In this document: positions 1 to 35,550 of the stretch, piece after piece
How positions within the stretch are numbered: the stretch's first letter is position 1
Layout: each line of letters opens with the position of its first letter
Assembly: GCA_027487315.1 (NCBI GenBank)
Contig: JAIYDW010000149.1
Coordinates: forward strand, 1-46,989
Reading direction: 5' to 3'
Length of the DNA stretch: 46,989 nt
DNA from: Verrucomicrobiaceae bacterium
GTDB lineage: Bacteria; Verrucomicrobiota; Verrucomicrobiia; Verrucomicrobiales; Verrucomicrobiaceae
Notes under the pieces: model-generated
The model's database searches: none
What the model was told of the DNA's origin: nothing
The model's input: the letters and a program-made list of their open reading frames with translations, nothing else
Made by a program: the position numbers and the translations under genes

Positions 1-102
1 ACCGGATGATGCCAATTCGCTTATAGCGCAGGCTTGGCACCTTGGATCGTGTTCGTTTTCCCACCCCGGCGGATGTCCGTGGTCTTTGTAAGTTTCGCTC
101 AT
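1..102 (-). CDS. Partial small protein, 5' end only
   Basis: An open frame runs leftward from an ATG at 102 off the window edge, giving 34 residues. A purine-rich AAAGGA lies about 7 bases upstream of the ATG and supports the start. The peptide begins MSETYKDHGH and contains two cysteines spaced C-x2-C (RCQAC) after a histidine-rich start, which could be the beginning of a small zinc-binding protein. It follows the ParB-like gene by 16 bases on the same strand, so it is probably the next gene of the element operon. I do not recognise the family. Confidence 0.5.
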   Translation of the reverse strand, partial: MSETYKDHGHPPGWENEHDPRCQACAISELASSG

Positions 103-118
103 GGCATATCCTTTCCGT

Positions 119-1546
119 TCACTCCCCCACCACCCCCGCCATCGCCGTCATCCCCTCCAACGGATCCACCGCCCCATCGCTCTCGATGCACAGCATCAGC
201 ATCAGCGCCCACCGGATCGCCCCCCGCTGCCCCATATCCCCCTGCACCCGCTCCCACAGCGCATCATACCCCCGGCACCCCGTCCACGCCTCCGCCGCCC
301 CCGCATCCACATCCGACGCCGCATGCACCAGGTGCGGCAGCAGCAGCTCCCACACCCCCGTCGTCATCGCCGCCGCCGGCCGCAGCGTGATCCGCTCCAT
401 GATCCCCCCCAAAATCACCTTCATCCGCACCCCCATCTCATCTTCATATTCCGCCTCCTCATCCACCGCCACCTTCACCCCACCCCCATCCCCCAAATCC
501 GCCCCGATCACCTCCACCGCACCCTCATCCTCATCACCGGCCTCCCGCTCACCCAATCCGCAATCCGCATTCCGCAATCCGCAATTCTGAGCCTCCGCCA
601 TGATGAGCAGCTTTTTATTCACCAGCCGCACCATCTCATCCTTATGGAGCGGCGCCGCCACGATCTGCACCGGCACCCCCACCGCCTTCGCCCGCTCCTC
701 CCAGGAAAGCCGCACATCCCCCCGCACCGGAAACCCATCCGCAAATTCAAAATCCCCCCACGGCTGCCCACTCTCCCCCTGCACAAACGTCCCCTTCCCC
801 TCCCACGGCACCACCTCATACCCATCCGCCATAGGAAACTTCCGCTTCAACCCCGGCACCTTCCCCTCCCACTCCTTCCGCCACTTATTCGGCATCACAT
901 AAGTCGCCTGGATGAAAGCCTTCGCCTGCCCGTGACTCATCACATCCCCCGTCACCTGATCCTTCAAAACCAGCTGCGTCACCTTCCGTCTGTCCTCCCC
1001 CTCCACCTCCAGCAAAAGCTCCGCCGTATTCACCGAAAGCACCCCCTTCGCCAGCGCCACCTTCGCCGCACTCGGCAGCCCCGCCTCCAAATCCAGCCAA
1101 AGCTGCACCCGCTCCACCTTCACCCCCATCGCCGGTGCCAGCTCCGCCGCCGTCATCCCCAGCGCCACCCCACCCCGCGCCGCCACACACCGCTCCCAGC
1201 TATCCAGCGCATCCGTATGCCCGTGATCTTGCAGCAGATACCGATACGCCGCCGCCTCATCCTCAAACTCCACCACCACCTGATCACACACCTCCCACCC
1301 CAAAAGCCGCATCGCATCCAGCCGCCTGTGCCCCTTCAGCACGTAATCCCCATCCACCCGCACCCACACATGGATCGCATCTTGCAGCCCGATCGCCGCC
1401 AGCGACTCCGCCAGCACCTCCACCCCCCGATACACCCCCTGCCGCGGATTCTTCTCCCAATCCCTGACCCGCGCCAAACTCCGCCCCCGCACCAAAGTCC
1501 CCACCGTCTTAGTCTCATTCATCGTCGTCGTCATAGTCATACTCAT
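119..1546 (-). CDS. ParB/Spo0J-like nuclease-fold protein of the integrated element
   Basis: 475 residues. The N-terminal 100 residues fit a ParB-type nucleotidase domain: an NPR segment near residue 33, a stretch beginning LAESLAAIGLQDAIHV, and the GHRR motif at residues 72-75 followed by LDAMRLLG. Residues 100-230 probably form a helical DNA-binding part. The rest is not recognisable. Residues about 320-331 are encoded by a short tandem repeat (553-587) and are followed by an acidic linker rich in D, E and G. Orphan ParB-like proteins of this kind are common in phages and islands and need not act in partition; no ParA partner is in view. The first of several ATGs was taken as start; one a few codons downstream is possible. 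It lies 20 bases after the helicase-methyltransferase gene in the same operon. Confidence 0.7.
   Translation of the reverse strand: MSMTMTTTMNETKTVGTLVRGRSLARVRDWEKNPRQGVYRGVEVLAESLAAIGLQDAIHVWVRVDGDYVLKGHRRLDAMRLLGWEVCDQVVVEFEDEAAAYRYLLQDHGHTDALDSWERCVAARGGVALGMTAAELAPAMGVKVERVQLWLDLEAGLPSAAKVALAKGVLSVNTAELLLEVEGEDRRKVTQLVLKDQVTGDVMSHGQAKAFIQATYVMPNKWRKEWEGKVPGLKRKFPMADGYEVVPWEGKGTFVQGESGQPWGDFEFADGFPVRGDVRLSWEERAKAVGVPVQIVAAPLHKDEMVRLVNKKLLIMAEAQNCGLRNADCGLGEREAGDEDEGAVEVIGADLGDGGGVKVAVDEEAEYEDEMGVRMKVILGGIMERITLRPAAAMTTGVWELLLPHLVHAASDVDAGAAEAWTGCRGYDALWERVQGDMGQRGAIRWALMLMLCIESDGAVDPLEGMTAMAGVVGE
553..587 (-). repeat. AATCCGC/ATTCCGC tandem mini-repeat inside a coding region
   Basis: About five imperfect copies of a 7-base unit (AATCCGC or ATTCCGC on the + strand) lie in frame inside the ParB-like gene. 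A related tract is at 35520-35550 in an intergenic region. The purine-rich strand is minus. Confidence 0.7.
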
Positions 1547-1566
1547 GTTAGAAATCAGTTAGAAAA

Positions 1567-3768
1567 TCAAAGCAGCGCCAGCTGCGCCCGTGCATTCCTC
1601 AAATTCATCGCCGCCTGCTTGAAATAGCTCTCCTTCAGCTCACTCCCCACAAAACGCCGCCCCAGCTCCAGCGCCCCCACCCCCTCACTCCCGATCCCCG
1701 TAAAAGGCGAATACACCAGATCCCCCTCATTCGTCCACAGCTCGATCGCCCGCTCGATCACATCCAACTGCAAAGGGCAGATATGCCGCTCATCCGCCTC
1801 ATCCCGCGCCCCATCCTTATTCAGCACCCGCCCCTGATCCACCGTCATCCACACCGGACTCGCCACCTCCTGCCACCAGTCCACCGGATACCGCGTCACA
1901 TCCTTCGTCACTGGCCTCGGATTCTCCCCCGGCTTGCGAAACACCAGCAGATAATCCGCACACCCCACCCGCGAATCACAGCTATCCGCCTTCAGCGTCT
2001 TATACAGCAGCCCATGTGCCTTCGTCCGCTGCATCTCCGTCACCGGACTCTTCCAAATGCAGATCCGCGAATGAAACAAAAAACCCCGTCTCCAAAACGC
2101 CCGAATAATCTCCCCGCTAAAATCCTGAAACTCGATCCGCCCATGCTTCCACTTCGTGCTCAGCAGATCCACACAATGCACCGCCACCTCACGCCCTGGC
2201 ACCATCACCCGCGCCATCTCATCGATCAAAAGCTCAAAATGCCCCGTGAACTCCTCCAGACTCGCGCAGTTCCCCATATCCTGCGGATCATCCGAATACG
2301 TAAACAGATCCGCAAACGGCGGGGAAAACACCGCAAAATCCACCGACTCATCCGCCATCCCCCGCGCCACCCGCACACAATCCCCGTGATGCAATACCCA
2401 CCCATCACCCGTCAAAGTATCAATGTCTGTTTTCATCGTCTTCTTCATCTTGTTCTCTGATTTGAAAGCCTCCGCCGCCAGCCGCATCCGCGACTGCATC
2501 TCCGCATGCTGATCCATCTTTCGCCGGATCGTCTGCAAAATCGCCCCCTCCGTCCGCGCCTGCACAATGTAAGCATTCACCTCCCGCACCTGGCCGAATC
2601 GATAGCTCCTCCGCAGCGCCTGATAAAAATCCTCAAAGGAATACGACAGCCCCACAAACGCCACATTCCGGCAATGCTGCCAGTTCATCCCAAAACCACA
2701 AATGGATGGCTTACTGATCATCACCCGGCATCTCCCCTCACTGAAAGCCCGCAGCTTCAACTCCTTATGCTCCGGCCTGTCCGACCCACGCACCTCCACC
2801 GCCGCAGGAATCCGCAGCACCAGCTCATCCGCCTCCACATTCGTATTGCACCACACCAGCCAAGCCTCATCAGATCCATTCACCAGCTCCGCCACCGCCT
2901 CCGCCCGCGCCGCCGCCGTCTCCCTCAGCTCCCGGTGCATCGTCGTCGCAGAAAGCGTCGCATGCTTGAAAAGCTCATCACTGCCCACCGGCGCAGACTC
3001 ATCCACCTCCACCCACACCGTCTCCATGTTCAGCGTCGGCAGCACATACCCCGCATCCTCAAACCCAATATCGGACGGCTTACCCACACACGCCGCCCAG
3101 CTCGCCACCCACTCCCAAAAATCCGCCTCCGCATGCCGCTTCAGCCGCCAATCCCCCGTATTAAAGGTATCGTTCACAAAGAACGTCGCCAGCATCTGCG
3201 CAGGACTGCACACCCCCAGAAAATCCGCATGCTGCCCGAACTCCGTGTAATCATTCGGCGAAGGCGTCGCCGTGCAGCACAGCCGATAGGGCGTCTCTGA
3301 AAACCGCGCCGTCAGCTTCCGCCGCGTCTTCCCCGTGAAATTCTTCAGAATCGAACTCTCATCCACCACCACCCCCTCAAACCGCACCTCATCGAACAAA
3401 TCCAGCTTCTCATAATTCGTGATATTGATCCCCGGCCCCACCTCCTCCGGCTGCCGCACCACCCGCGCATCGATCCCAAACCGCCTCGCCTCCTCCAGCG
3501 TCTGCGCCGCCACCGCCAGCGGCGTCAGAATGATCACCGCCCCGCCCGAATGCACAGCCACCTGCCGCGCCCATTCCAGTTGTTGCAGCGTCTTCCCCAG
3601 CCCGCACTCCTCAAACAGCGCCGCCCGCCCCTTTCGGATCGCCCACCGCGTCACATGCTCCTGAAACGGAAACAACGGCGCCACCACCACCCCAGGCTCA
3701 AAACCCGCATCGATCGCCTTCCGCGTCTTAGCCGCCACAAACTCATCATAATCCAAAAGTGCACTCAT
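1567..3768 (-). CDS. Helicase-DNA methyltransferase fusion
   Basis: 733 residues with two enzymes in one chain. Residues 1-435 form a superfamily 2 (SNF2/DEAD-like) helicase. Walker A is CGLGKT at 55-60, motif II is VVDES at 134-138, motif III is TATPS at 166-170, and a motif VI-like QALRRSYRFGQ sits at 383-393. Residues 446-733 form an amino-methyltransferase with SPPF (motif IV) at 482-485, a motif X-like segment near 662, and an FTGIG AdoMet-binding loop near 689-693. That order is the beta class, and SPPF points to N4-cytosine or N6-adenine methylation. The linker at 436-445 holds two internal methionines that could allow a separate methyltransferase product. Phages and islands use such fusions against host restriction or during their own replication; the role here is inferred. 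A repeated leader (3776-3813) ends just before the ATG. Confidence 0.85.
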   Translation of the reverse strand: MSALLDYDEFVAAKTRKAIDAGFEPGVVVAPLFPFQEHVTRWAIRKGRAALFEECGLGKTLQQLEWARQVAVHSGGAVIILTPLAVAAQTLEEARRFGIDARVVRQPEEVGPGINITNYEKLDLFDEVRFEGVVVDESSILKNFTGKTRRKLTARFSETPYRLCCTATPSPNDYTEFGQHADFLGVCSPAQMLATFFVNDTFNTGDWRLKRHAEADFWEWVASWAACVGKPSDIGFEDAGYVLPTLNMETVWVEVDESAPVGSDELFKHATLSATTMHRELRETAAARAEAVAELVNGSDEAWLVWCNTNVEADELVLRIPAAVEVRGSDRPEHKELKLRAFSEGRCRVMISKPSICGFGMNWQHCRNVAFVGLSYSFEDFYQALRRSYRFGQVREVNAYIVQARTEGAILQTIRRKMDQHAEMQSRMRLAAEAFKSENKMKKTMKTDIDTLTGDGWVLHHGDCVRVARGMADESVDFAVFSPPFADLFTYSDDPQDMGNCASLEEFTGHFELLIDEMARVMVPGREVAVHCVDLLSTKWKHGRIEFQDFSGEIIRAFWRRGFLFHSRICIWKSPVTEMQRTKAHGLLYKTLKADSCDSRVGCADYLLVFRKPGENPRPVTKDVTRYPVDWWQEVASPVWMTVDQGRVLNKDGARDEADERHICPLQLDVIERAIELWTNEGDLVYSPFTGIGSEGVGALELGRRFVGSELKESYFKQAAMNLRNARAQLALL

Positions 3769-3775
3769 AAAAAAA

Positions 3776-3813
3776 ATCCCGTTAATCCTTCAAAATCCTG
3801 TTAATCCTGTCTC
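3776..3813 (-). repeat. GGATTAAC mini-repeat leader, copy 1
   Basis: Read on minus this tract starts GAGACAGGATTAACAGGATT, continues with a further AGGATTAACGGGATT, and runs into a T-rich stretch ending at the ATG of the helicase-methyltransferase gene. Similar tracts with the same ends precede the genes starting at 5236 and 6674. Confidence 0.75.
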
Positions 3814-3822
3814 AAAAAACCC

Positions 3823-4701
3823 TCACTCCACCCCCAACCGCCGCCGCTCCGCCGCCTCATGCAGCGCATCCAGCCGCATCCGCAGCTGCCCTGGACTCAA
3901 CCCCCGAAACTCCGCCTTCACCGGCACCGGCTCCGCCCGCACCCGGATCCGCCCCACCATCTCATACACCTCATCCGTCAGCACCCGCACCTCCTCCCGC
4001 ACCCGCACCGCCTCCTCATCCTCCTCCTCATGCTCCACCTTGGCCCCACCCTTCCTGTTATGATTCCCACGCTGCACCACCTCATAACTCACCCGCGCAG
4101 ACCGCGCCTTTTGAAACCACAGCACCGCCGGCTCCCGCATCGTCAGCCTCATCCCGCACTTATCCATATCCGCCTGAATCTTCATCATCGCCGCACAGAT
4201 CGCCGAACGCTTATTCGTCGCCCGCAGCCCCCACAGCAGACCGATGCTCTCCATGCACGGCAGCGCCTCCCGCACCACCGGCCCCCGCTCCAGCATGTAG
4301 GCCAGAAGCGAAACCCGCCGCCCCAGCTCCATCAGCCCACCCGCATCCCCCTTCACCAGCTCCCCCACCCGCCACCTATCCACCATCTCCACCTCCGCCG
4401 CCCCCGCAAGATCCAGCCCACAGCACCCACCCACCAAAGCCCGATCCCCCCTACTCAGCCTCACCCCCGCCAAACCAAGGCCCGGACACAGCACCCCCAG
4501 CATCCACCACATCCGCGCCCCCATCACCACCAGCCCGGGCCTGCCCCCCACCGCATTGCACAACAGCAGAGAAAGCAAACTCAACCGCGCCGGACTCACA
4601 TCCACCCCCAGCACCCCCTCCTCCTCACGCATCAACTCATCCACCGGCGTCTCATCGACGACCGCCGCCCACATCCCATCCACCCAAGCCCCACTCATCA
4701 T
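3823..4701 (-). CDS. Unknown element protein, 292 residues
   Basis: I do not recognise this protein. The N-terminal half is rich in leucine, glycine and valine. The middle contains a conserved-looking stretch (NKRSAICAAMMKIQADMDKCG) and a tryptophan-phenylalanine segment. Residues about 215-240 are acidic, and the C-terminal 50 residues are predicted helical and charged. The start at 4701 overlaps the stop of the upstream gene in an ATGA arrangement, which implies translational coupling. The order within the operon, just before the helicase-methyltransferase, suggests an early phage or island function. The stop is followed at once by the repeat leader of the next gene. Confidence 0.6.
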   Translation of the reverse strand: MMSGAWVDGMWAAVVDETPVDELMREEEGVLGVDVSPARLSLLSLLLCNAVGGRPGLVVMGARMWWMLGVLCPGLGLAGVRLSRGDRALVGGCCGLDLAGAAEVEMVDRWRVGELVKGDAGGLMELGRRVSLLAYMLERGPVVREALPCMESIGLLWGLRATNKRSAICAAMMKIQADMDKCGMRLTMREPAVLWFQKARSARVSYEVVQRGNHNRKGGAKVEHEEEDEEAVRVREEVRVLTDEVYEMVGRIRVRAEPVPVKAEFRGLSPGQLRMRLDALHEAAERRRLGVE

Positions 4702-4928
4702 ACCCCCACCTCCTCTAGAAGCGATCTATCACCCACCCGCAGCAACCCCCGCCGCATCGCCGCCAGCTCCACCGCCTCCACCCGCCGCAGCTCCTCAAAT
4801 CGGCCCCGAAGCCACCCCAAATGCAGCCGCAACCGCGCCACCGCATCCTCAGCCTCATCATCCAGCTCAGTCACCAAAGCCAGCTCCTCCGCCATCCGCT
4901 CCACCGTCGCCAGCATCTCCCTCTTCAT
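4698..4928 (-). CDS. Small coiled-coil protein
   Basis: 76 residues from the ATG at 4928, starting MKREMLATVERM. It is nearly all charged helix with heptad-like leucines, so a short coiled coil is likely. The frame is open upstream to 5000, but that part is encoded by a CACGAAG-type mini-repeat (4935-4962). The sequence GGGGGAG directly before the ATG at 4928 is a plausible ribosome site, so the shorter form is preferred. Its stop overlaps the next start (ATGA). No family is recognised. Confidence 0.55.
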   Translation of the reverse strand: MKREMLATVERMAEELALVTELDDEAEDAVARLRLHLGWLRGRFEELRRVEAVELAAMRRGLLRVGDRSLLEEVGV

Positions 4929-4934
4929 CTCCCC

Positions 4935-4962
4935 CACGTTCGTGACTTCGTGTCTTCGTGTG
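4935..4962 (-). repeat. CACGAAG-type mini-repeat
   Basis: On minus, three imperfect copies of a CACGAAG-like unit lie between the genes at 4698-4928 and 4973-5236, slightly upstream of the former's start codon. Confidence 0.65.
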
Positions 4963-4972
4963 ACCAAAGAAC

Positions 4973-5236
4973 TCACAGCCCACCCCCTTCCCACCCACAC
5001 CCGTTCAAATTCGCCTCACGCTCCCGCCGCTCATACAAATCCCGGATCGACTCAAACCGATCCACAAACAACGTCTCATCCCCCAGCACCGCCTCACACA
5101 TCTCAATCTCCGCCCCCGCCAGCCCCCCATGATCCGGCAGCACACGCGCCCGCACCCTCGCCTCCAGCAACATCCCAGGCAAAGGCGAAACCGCCACCCC
5201 ATCCTCATTCAAAAGAAAACTTGTAGTCATACTCAT
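4973..5236 (-). CDS. Unknown element protein, 87 residues
   Basis: The protein begins MSMTTSFLLNEDGVAVSP and contains a central acidic segment ending in a helix with RFESIRDLYERREREAN. No known domain is recognised. The ATG at 5236 directly follows the second copy of the GGATTAAC leader repeat and the T-rich stretch after it. The gene is in line with the leftward operon, about 45 bases before the coiled-coil gene. Confidence 0.6.
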   Translation of the reverse strand: MSMTTSFLLNEDGVAVSPLPGMLLEARVRARVLPDHGGLAGAEIEMCEAVLGDETLFVDRFESIRDLYERREREANLNGCGWEGGGL

Positions 5237-5243
5237 AAAAAAA

Positions 5244-5263
5244 ATCCGTTAAATCCCGTCTCA
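5244..5263 (-). repeat. GGATTAAC mini-repeat leader, copy 2
   Basis: A shortened copy: on minus it begins GAGACGGGATTTAACGGATT, followed by eight T and the ATG at 5236. It abuts a CACGGAGG-type tract at 5271-5300, and the stop of the upstream gene lies at its edge. Confidence 0.7.
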
Positions 5264-5521
5264 AAAACTCCCTCCGTGCCCTCCGCGTCCTCCGTGCGAA
5301 CCCCCACCCGGATACTGCCCACTAGCCACCCTCGAACTCACATCCTCCACATCCGCCCACCGATAAAACACCGAATCCCGCCCCCGCCCCGTCTTCCGCA
5401 CACACGGCCGCAGCCACCCAAACTTCACCGCATCCTCAAAGACCCCACGCTTCAAATAAGTGATCGCCTCACTTTGCGACATATGGTGAGACATCGGCAC
5501 CCTGGACACCCGCGCACTCAC
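5261..5521 (-). CDS. Small DNA-binding-like protein with repeat-encoded tail
   Basis: 86 residues from a GTG at 5521 that overlaps the upstream stop (GTGA). The central part (SQSEAITYLKRGVFEDAVKFGWLRP) reads like a short helix-turn-helix or excisionase-like fold, but this is a weak resemblance. The last dozen residues are a glycine-rich tail (GGSHGGRGGHGGSF) encoded by the CACGGAGG repeat at 5271-5300, so the tail probably has no conserved role. A later in-frame ATG (MSHHMSQS) is an alternative start. Confidence 0.55.
   Translation of the reverse strand: MSARVSRVPMSHHMSQSEAITYLKRGVFEDAVKFGWLRPCVRKTGRGRDSVFYRWADVEDVSSRVASGQYPGGGSHGGRGGHGGSF
5271..5300 (-). repeat. CACGGAGG-type mini-repeat
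   Basis: On minus, three imperfect CACGGAGG/CGCGGAGG units lie in tandem. They encode the C-terminal tail of the gene ending at 5261. A second tract of the same family is at 7064-7094. Confidence 0.7.
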
Positions 5522-6351
5522 AGCCCGCCCCCCTTCTCCATATTGTTCAACCGCATCAGCCCCACCTCAAGCGCCTTCAAAGTCTTCAAAGTCGGCAGCT
5601 TCCCCGCCCTGAAATCCTTCACCGCCTGATCACTCAACCCCGAAGCCCTCGTCAAATCCACCATCCACAGCCTCCTCAACATTCTCCCCTTCTCAAACCG
5701 CCCCCAGGCCACCCGCACCCGCCCCAACGTCGCCTCCACCACCTCCACATGCGCCCGCAGCACCGGCAGCGCCCCCCGCACCCACCCCACCATCTCCATC
5801 GTCCACGCCATCCCCCGCTCCAGCCCATTCAAAAACACCCCCTCAGTCCCACCCATCTTCCGCACCGCCCCAATCATCATCGACCTCGGCGAATCCATCC
5901 GATTCATCCTCTTCGAAAGCGCCTTGTATTCCGCCACCAGCCCCGCCTGCTCCTCACAAATCTCCCGCCCAGGCCGCCCACCCGCCCCACGCATCGCCCG
6001 CCCAAACCCCTCCGCCAAAACAGACCCCACCCGCCCAAACGGTACCGCCCGCACCACCCGCAGCTTCTTCTTCCCCCGCCGCACCCGCGCCTCCAAAATC
6101 GCCCGCGCCTTCCGCACCTTCCCCTCCGCCCCCAACTGCCACCCCCCATCCACGATCGGCACCGAAACCTCCACCGGCAGCTCCCCCAAAATCTCCACCT
6201 CCAGCTTCACCTCCTCCAGCTTCAGCAACCCCCGCCGAAACAGCGCAAAATTCACCTTCTTCTCATCCTCATTGCACCCCGGCATATCCCGCCACCGATA
6301 CCCATTAAAAGACATCTCCCACGGCCTCAAAACAGCAGCAGCCTCACACAT
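5518..6351 (-). CDS. Unknown protein with C-terminal HTH-like segment
   Basis: 277 residues from an ATG at 6351, two bases after the upstream stop. The C-terminal 45 residues (DLTRASGLSDQAVKDFRAG then LPTLKTLKALEVGLMRL) resemble a lambda-repressor or XRE-type helix-turn-helix, in which a short helix-turn is followed by a helix ending in a leucine-rich segment. The N-terminal 230 residues are basic and not recognised; a KVRKARAILEARVRRGKKK stretch could bind nucleic acid. It may regulate the element or act in its replication; neither is shown. The next gene overlaps its stop. Confidence 0.55.
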   Translation of the reverse strand: MCEAAAVLRPWEMSFNGYRWRDMPGCNEDEKKVNFALFRRGLLKLEEVKLEVEILGELPVEVSVPIVDGGWQLGAEGKVRKARAILEARVRRGKKKLRVVRAVPFGRVGSVLAEGFGRAMRGAGGRPGREICEEQAGLVAEYKALSKRMNRMDSPRSMMIGAVRKMGGTEGVFLNGLERGMAWTMEMVGWVRGALPVLRAHVEVVEATLGRVRVAWGRFEKGRMLRRLWMVDLTRASGLSDQAVKDFRAGKLPTLKTLKALEVGLMRLNNMEKGGGL

Positions 6352-6353
6352 AC

Positions 6354-6674
6354 TCACATCACCCCCCCTTCCATCTTCACCGGATCCTGATTCAACCCAC
6401 CCTCCACCCGCCCCACCCATCCGCCATCCCCGCGACTCACCACCCGCATCATCGGCCTCGGCGTAATCCGCCCTAGCCCCTCCTCTCTGCCACGCGCCCG
6501 CCCCGCATCATAAGCCTCATCAATCGCCCGCCTCACCGACCCCGCATCCCCGCCCCCCCGTCTCCGCCTCGGCCTCATCGGCCGCAGCACAAACGCCAAA
6601 ACAATCGCCAAACAAAGCACCGCCCCCGTCACCATCCCACCCAAAAAAAGCTCACTGTTAGAATAAAGAGTCAT
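6354..6674 (-). CDS. Single-pass membrane protein, 106 residues
   Basis: Residues 10-32 form one hydrophobic segment (FLGGMVTGAVLCLAIVLAFVL), followed by a very basic stretch (RPMRPRRRRGGG), so the C-terminal part should face the cytoplasm. The remainder is a charged helix and a variable tail. It could be a phage holin-like or small accessory membrane protein; the sequence alone does not decide. The ATG lies nine bases after the third copy of the GGATTAAC leader repeat. Confidence 0.6.
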   Translation of the reverse strand: MTLYSNSELFLGGMVTGAVLCLAIVLAFVLRPMRPRRRRGGGDAGSVRRAIDEAYDAGRARGREEGLGRITPRPMMRVVSRGDGGWVGRVEGGLNQDPVKMEGGVM

Positions 6675-6682
6675 AATATTAA

Positions 6683-6718
6683 AATCCCGTTAATCCTGAA
6701 ATCCTGTAAATCCTGTCT
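6683..6718 (-). repeat. GGATTAAC mini-repeat leader, copy 3
   Basis: On minus, GAGACAGGATTTACAGG is followed by AGGATTAACGGGATTTT, ending nine bases before the ATG at 6674. The tract also encodes the last residues (ETGFTGFQD) and the TAA stop of the upstream gene. Confidence 0.75.
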
Positions 6719-6977
6719 CCAAAGCAGCCACCTCCGCCTTCAGCATCCGCCCCCACATCGGCGTCCCACTCACAGCCGCCAGCCACGCCACCTCCGGCGT
6801 CACCTCACGCACCCGCACCATCTCCACCGGCACCGTCGGCAGCAGTTCAAACACCCGCCGCACCTTCCGCTCCGCCTCCATCGCCGCCACCCAATCCACC
6901 TCCGCCCGCACCAACACCATCACCGTGTAGCAATACAAAGCCGACTCAAACCCCATCAACACCTCAAAGCACCTCAT
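6690..6977 (-). CDS. Unknown element protein, 95 residues
   Basis: From the ATG at 6977, which shares one base with the upstream stop (TGATG), so coupling is likely. It begins MRCFEVLMGFESALYC and is mostly helical. The last nine residues (ETGFTGFQD) and the stop are encoded by the mini-repeat at 6683-6718, so the repeat has replaced or extended the natural end of the gene. No family is recognised. Confidence 0.5.
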   Translation of the reverse strand: MRCFEVLMGFESALYCYTVMVLVRAEVDWVAAMEAERKVRRVFELLPTVPVEMVRVREVTPEVAWLAAVSGTPMWGRMLKAEVAALETGFTGFQD

Positions 6978-7198
6978 CACGCGCCCCTCCCTTCCATCAT
7001 CGGCCTCACCCGCCCCGCCGAAACCTCCTCCACCCACGCCGCAGACGCCCCCACCATCATCATCCCTCCGTGTCCCTCCGCGCCCTCCGTGCGCAACCTC
7101 ACCTCCCCCGCAATCGCCCCACTACACATCGCCGGCATCCCTCGCGACTGCTCGCCAGCCCCATCACATCTTCTCAAACTGGTTGTTTCATTGATCAT
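6977..7198 (-). CDS. Unknown element protein, 73 residues, interrupted by repeat
   Basis: The frame from an ATG at 7198 begins MINETTSLRRC and ends SAGRVRPMMEGRGA. Its middle (VRLRTEGAEGHGG) is encoded by the CACGGAGG repeat at 7064-7094. Directly after that repeat come three ATG codons in a row preceded by GGAGGG, so translation of a shorter C-terminal protein from about 7063 is possible. Either one gene carries a repeat insertion, or two small genes are joined through the repeat. Confidence 0.4.
   Translation of the reverse strand: MINETTSLRRCDGAGEQSRGMPAMCSGAIAGEVRLRTEGAEGHGGMMMVGASAAWVEEVSAGRVRPMMEGRGA
7064..7094 (-). repeat. CACGGAGG-type mini-repeat, second copy
   Basis: On minus, three imperfect units (CGGAGGGCGCGGAGGG, then ACACGGAGGG) lie just before a run of three ATG codons in the gene at 6977-7198. 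Confidence 0.7.
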
Positions 7199-7247
7199 TA
7201 GCGTTGTCCTCCGCTTGGTTTTTTTTGTTTTGGTTGTTCCCTGAAAA

Positions 7248-7433
7248 TCATCCCGACATCTCCACCGGCTCCTGCATCGTCAAAATCTCCAATCTCCCAG
7301 ATCGTCTCACCTCCATCACGATTCTCAGAAGCCCCTGCCGCGCCAAATCCGCCGCACTCAACCGCGTCGAATTTTCCACCTCAGTCAGCGCCTCCGCCAA
7401 CTCTTCATCCAGTTTCGTGTGAACCGATCTCAT
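7248..7433 (-). CDS. Ribbon-helix-helix-like regulator, leftward
   Basis: 61 residues, starting MRSVHTKLDEELAEALTEVE and continuing NSTRLSAADLARQGLLRIVMEVRRSG. The pattern of a short beta strand followed by two helices fits an Arc/MetJ/CopG-type ribbon-helix-helix DNA-binding protein. It is the first gene of the leftward element operon and is divergent from a second protein of the same type at 7513, with an 80-base control region between them. It probably represses one or both promoters; that is inferred from position and fold. Confidence 0.6.
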   Translation of the reverse strand: MRSVHTKLDEELAEALTEVENSTRLSAADLARQGLLRIVMEVRRSGRLEILTMQEPVEMSG

Positions 7434-21523: not shown

Positions 21524-21634
21524 CCCCCGCAGCCGCATTCGCCAGAATGCGATCCCATAGACTCCCCCGCAGCCGCATTCGCCAGAATGCGTTCCTCCTC
21601 ACCGCACCCCTTAGACGCATTCGCCAGAATACCC
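21524..21634. repeat. REP-like palindromes, three copies
   Basis: CGCATTC-GCCA-GAATGCG occurs at 21534-21551 and 21574-21591, the two being part of a 28-base unit repeated with a 40-base period. A degenerate third copy lies at 21615-21632. The stems are perfect in the first two. A related palindrome, CGTTC-GTCA-GAACG, is at 38458-38471 after murC-murB. Confidence 0.75.
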
Positions 21635-21640
21635 CTCCCC

Positions 21641-21680
21641 TAATCCTGTTAATCCAAAAAAATCCTGTTAATCCTGTTAG
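21641..21680 (-). repeat. GGATTAAC mini-repeat, intergenic copy
   Basis: Four ACAGGATTA-like units on minus between the squalene-fold gene and aspS. Unlike the element copies, no start codon follows in the repeat direction. Confidence 0.7.
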
Positions 21681-35492: not shown

Positions 35493-35550
35493 CGCTCTCC
35501 ACTCTCCACTCTCCACTCTCCGCATTCCGCAATCCGAAATCAGCATTCCC
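35493..35550 (-). repeat. ACTCTCC and ATTCCGC tandem mini-repeats
   Basis: On + the tract runs through four copies of CTCTCCA-like units, then ATTCCGC and AATCCG units like those at 553-587. The purine-rich strand is minus. It lies in the gap between the divergent genes at 35393 and 35601. Confidence 0.75.

Follow-up and report, generated by a model that had tools for sequence, protein, structure and literature searches.

Tracts at gene starts in a Verrucomicrobiaceae genome belong to a small, dispersed repeat of intergenic regions

Genes and repeat tracts of the element-like block

The window, that is, the whole stretch of 46,989 nucleotides of Verrucomicrobiaceae DNA that was analyzed, carries on its minus strand (positions 1–7433) an element-like block of mostly overlapping genes, encoding a ParB-like protein, a helicase-methylase, and several proteins without a family match. 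The repeats of this block sit at junctions where the genes do not overlap (Table 1). The sequence GAGACRGGATT occurs on the minus strand as three exact matches in the window, against approximately 0.12 expected, each of them shortly before an ATG. The tracts start with GAGACAGGATT in copy 1 (3813–3803), GAGACGGGATT in copy 2 (5262–5252), and again GAGACAGGATT in copy 3 (6719–6709), and at their 3' ends GGATT and a T-rich run are followed 6–8 nt on by the ATG of the next gene (ORF starts 3768, 5236, and 6674). The three tracts, with their shared GAGAC(A/G)GGATT start and T-rich end before an ATG, are thus present in the window sequence as the first-pass annotation had described them. Its statement that copy 3 provides the upstream gene with its stop codon and last residues is borne out by ORF 7037–6690, which runs into the copy and ends at the TAA of GGATTAACGG. 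A second such case, ORF 5521–5261 upstream of copy 2, whose TGA comes from the start of the tract, was overlooked there, as were the fourth full copy at 21641–21679 and the genome-wide nature of the tract.

Table 1. Repeat copies, the genes behind them, and neighboring short repeats in the window
Feature	Position	Strand	Remark
Repeat copy 1, full four-unit form	3775..3813	-	6 nt upstream of the ATG at 3768
Repeat copy 2, reduced two-unit form (GAGACGGGATTTAACGGATT)	5244..5263	-	Gives the upstream ORF its TGA; ahead of the ATG at 5236
Repeat copy 3, full form	6683..6719	-	Last residues and TAA of ORF 7037–6690; ahead of the ATG at 6674
Repeat copy 4, full form	21641..21679	-	In a spacer, with no adjacent start codon to lead
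Gene behind copy 1, SNF2-type helicase and N6/N4 DNA methylase	1567..3768	-	Missing together with copy 1 in sister species G003
Gene behind copy 2	4973..5236	-	No family match; N-terminus of the G003 ortholog diverged
Gene behind copy 3	6354..6674	-	No family match; start and early codons conserved in G003
Short repeat of another family (CACGGAGG), 9-bp period	5270..5297	-	Adjoins copy 2, within the 3' end of ORF 5521–5261
Short repeat (CACGAAGA), 8-bp period	4939..4961	-	At the start of ORF 5000–4698
Short repeat of the CACGGAGG family	7063..7091	-	

Further short tandem families, of GCGGATT-type and CTCTCCA heptamers, occupy spacers and ORF ends elsewhere in the window (554–585, 35519–35549, and 35495–35521). 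Beside copy 4, at 21529–21640, a palindrome of the CGCATTCGCCAGAATGCG type is repeated, and it is present in fewer copies in G003.

Architecture and placement across the genome

Rather than forming a leader peculiar to three genes, the tracts belong to a small intergenic repeat that is dispersed through the genome. It is roughly 40 letters long: a T-tract-GG is followed by ACAGGATTnACAGGATT, and after a short spacer, which varies, come GGATTAACRGGATT and a T-tract. Its core, VRGGATTNACVGGATT, has 85 exact matches in the 5.87-Mb genome, where approximately 0.6 would be expected, and none in the reversed control; with one mismatch allowed, the core matches form about 69 clusters. When 35 full copies were compared, both half-sites were nearly invariant, with the T-tract-GG upstream and a T-rich stretch downstream, and the spacer varied in length and sequence. 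The earlier remark that the ends of the tracts are more alike than the middle consequently holds genome-wide and is therefore a property of the repeat rather than of leaders. Like small dispersed repeats and multicopy intergenic sequences in general, the repeat is short, intergenic, and present in many copies, and its presence varies between close relatives.

Most copies are intergenic, and usually fewer than 40 bp separate their T-rich 5' end from a gene boundary, as located with a simple codon-usage gene finder whose gene starts are approximate. Between co-directional genes, 30 copies were antisense and 13 sense to the near start codon (p = 0.014; p = 0.004 after leaving out two element copies). 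Sense copies that directly abut a downstream ATG comprised, among the approximately 69, only those of the window and one or two others.

A palindromic REP-like element (e.g., GGGCTGCCTTTGGCAGGCTG) is nested in ACAGGATT copies, between or within the half-sites (L083:8780–8869, L330 [G003 C220], L051, and L071), and these copies look as if they had served as its landing site.

Turnover between sister species and the role at gene starts

Much of the gene block is also present in the sister species G003, at a DNA identity of about 80–93%. Copy 3 has kept its position near the ATG there, with a changed middle, and copy 2 is present in a short form, with GAATGGATTAACAGGATTTTTTTATG at the site; the place of the neighboring CACGGAGG repeat of the window is taken in G003 by a GCGGATT-type heptamer repeat. 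G003 lacks copy 1 together with the helicase-methylase gene that follows it, the ParB-like gene is led by a CACGAAT-type repeat in G003 and by a different leader in the window, and the ortholog of copy 4 differs in unit composition. From the joint absence at copy 1 and the differing leaders of the ParB-like gene, it follows that gene order changes at one leader, that of copy 1, and that leaders differ in repeat family. The proposal that the tracts are sites of recombination between genes gains one suggestive case from the joint absence of copy 1 and its gene.

Elsewhere in the genome, 20 sites were mapped to the G003 sequence compared, some of the rearranged G003 sites being assigned by judgement from pairwise alignments, and most were shared, some with identical copies and some with an altered middle or unit number. 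Five of the 20 copies (L083:8862, L072:2382, L027, and two in L094) were absent or replaced in G003; the replacements are repeats of unrelated 6–7-bp units, among them (TTTCGGA)n, (GGAGATG)n, and (GAGGAC)n. An additional 216 kb gave no further mapped sites. The sole clean empty site was L083:8862, where the repeat contains a nested REP-like palindrome and neither G003 nor a second relative, G001, has a copy; the uninterrupted G003 site reads CTTTTTTTGGG. A T-tract flanks the insert on both sides, and G003 has the T-tract alone; a single site of this kind does not establish a target-site duplication such as MITEs make.

These observations bear on whether the tracts serve the genes that they precede. 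A functional 5' leader, in which a U-rich unstructured tract would act as a translation-initiation or regulatory element through S1- or Csp-type binding, would be consistent with the T-rich end lying 6–8 nt before the ATG in all three element copies and with copy 3 staying close to the ATG in G003 despite its sequence change; the same role has been proposed for heptamer repeats just upstream of starts, the TAACTGA repeats of Beggiatoaceae (PMC4679880). However, the genome-wide orientation is mostly antisense to the near start codon, hardly any other copies adjoin an ATG, and the two species do not share the leader of the ParB-like gene in this block. Neither RNA structure nor an Rfam match speaks for it: the single arms in the window fold no better than shuffled sequences, and a search of window positions 3700–6800 against Rfam gave no match at E values of up to 1. 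We therefore consider a leader function unlikely, and the translation enhancer suggested by the first-pass annotation is unsupported as a general rule. What stands of its leader cassette inserted at gene starts is the insertion at junctions, in that the repeat is dispersed, varies between close species, and supplies stops and leaders; a general leader role is not supported.

Occurrence across phyla and origin of the repeat

The motif was found in 36 of 57 relatives and in none of the controls. In a scan with one genome per species, exact bipartite matches occurred, among the matches listed, in at least eight phyla and also in isolates; the groups with an exact match were Verrucomicrobiota, Kiritimatiellota, Gammaproteobacteria, Acidobacteriota (Holophagae and Blastocatellia), Chloroflexota, Bacillota, Bacteroidota, and Desulfobacterota. 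When 25 of these genomes were scanned whole, each had 2–270 matches, with none in the controls. Because the scan pattern fixes the architecture, the core shared among the loci of other phyla is partly so by construction, but the pattern does not build in the inverted partners of the arms or the palindromic outer ends, which are specific to each lineage. Contamination was ruled out as the cause of the trans-phylum matches because isolates of Geothrix, Pelotomaculum, Thiobaca, and Thioalkalivibrio carry the repeat. In a search of distant plasmids, a Thiodictyon plasmid matched the repeat, and the only other match was an unrelated one in Paraburkholderia. A phage origin is unlikely, since the full pattern was confined to five stretches of viral contigs, which also lack relatives of two of the element proteins.

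In the other phyla, the repeat often takes a hairpin form. Inverted pairs of arms were convergent in 53 of 54 cases and divergent in one, with loops of 13–231 nt, and one pair folds at −66.9 kcal/mol (z = −16). Terminal inverted repeats, a trait of MITEs, with outer ends specific to each lineage, are present in these phyla and absent from the genome studied here, in whose loci the same search returned no inverted pairs; the copies of this genome may be solo arms.

Taken together, these features are probably best explained by a dispersed intergenic repeat of the mobile type. Its core consists of two half-sites of 9-bp period (ACAGGATTnACAGGATT and GGATTAACRGGATT) around a free spacer; in many phyla it occurs in inverted pairs that form a long hairpin, and in this genus single arms would remain. 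Copies enter intergenic spacers, here beside T-tracts, and are gained, lost, or swapped for other short repeat families within the time of divergence of sister species; in the block of the window they have settled at the non-overlapping junctions and become 5' leaders and even stop codons and C-terminal residues. Movement would be by an enzyme acting in trans, the hairpin form may be ancestral, and the spread was presumably horizontal. With a motif this short, descent of the copies in different phyla from a common ancestor is unproven. In a further-reaching version, which we put forward tentatively, one hairpin-forming family with 9-bp-period arms would move within and between phyla by a mechanism other than a known transposase system, and single arms left at junctions would be recruited as leaders, stops, and C-terminal tails.

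No enzyme that moves the repeat was found. Most of the genomes checked have RAYT genes, but these do not track the repeat: an arm lies within about 1.5 kb at 1 of 30 RAYT loci, two copy-rich genomes have no RAYT match, and several RAYT-bearing relatives lack the repeat. Neither the presence test nor the proximity test thus supports RAYT as the mover. These results weigh on the reading of the repeat as a REPIN- or MITE-type element moved by a resident REP tyrosine or other IS transposase and present here as degraded halves. The hairpin-forming inverted doublets of other phyla and the singlets found here fit such an element, since REPINs and REPs with RAYT likewise comprise small intergenic inverted doublets that form hairpins, with singlets as a second form (PMC3116915), and both the RAYT genes of most of the genomes and the separate palindromic REP-like element nested in some copies are in keeping with it. 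However, the arms are direct repeats, whereas those of REPINs are imperfect palindromes, and they do not flank RAYT genes, so that we regard this origin as doubtful. Least likely is an origin in which replication slippage expanded chance seeds into a simple, non-mobile sequence repeat, which would account for the 9-bp periodicity and for the unit-sized steps by which L076 and L029 differ between the sister species but leaves unexplained the same bipartite sequence at approximately 69 sites, fixed half-sites around a non-repeat spacer, whole copies being present or absent, and the same core with inverted pairs in many phyla.

For years, individual genomes have been reported to contain short intergenic repeats for which no mover is known. 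In the present case, one architecture is common to at least eight phyla, often as hairpins, with probable solo arms in this genome and turnover between sister species. The repeat offers a concrete case in which the spread of tiny repeats, and the gain of leaders, stop codons, and protein tails at gene junctions, can be put to the test.

Small dispersed repeats (SDR) of cyanobacteria are tiny, intergenic, and apparently mobile and encode no enzyme. The repeat described here is likewise tiny, intergenic, apparently mobile, and without an encoded enzyme, but differs from them in sequence. In a literature search of openly readable main texts, the literal sequence of the repeat occurred in no relevant paper. 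The multicopy intergenic sequences of Geobacter bemidjiensis comprise, according to the main text of the paper, several families of direct or palindromic repeats of 6–42 nt, one of which also occurs within protein-coding genes (PMC2996986); that main text contains neither this sequence nor a trans-phylum claim. As in that genome, going by the same text, several families share intergenic regions and insertion is non-random. The TAACTGA heptamer direct repeats of Beggiatoaceae, Cyanobacteria, and Bacteroidetes are intergenic, lie near start codons, and have no evident transfer mechanism (PMC4679880). They resemble the present repeat as short intergenic direct repeats near starts with a patchy distribution over distant groups, but their forward placement before starts is shared by the copies of the window and not genome-wide (30 antisense versus 13 sense). 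They also have another unit and period, whereas the repeat described here has a fixed bipartite layout and forms hairpin pairs in other phyla.
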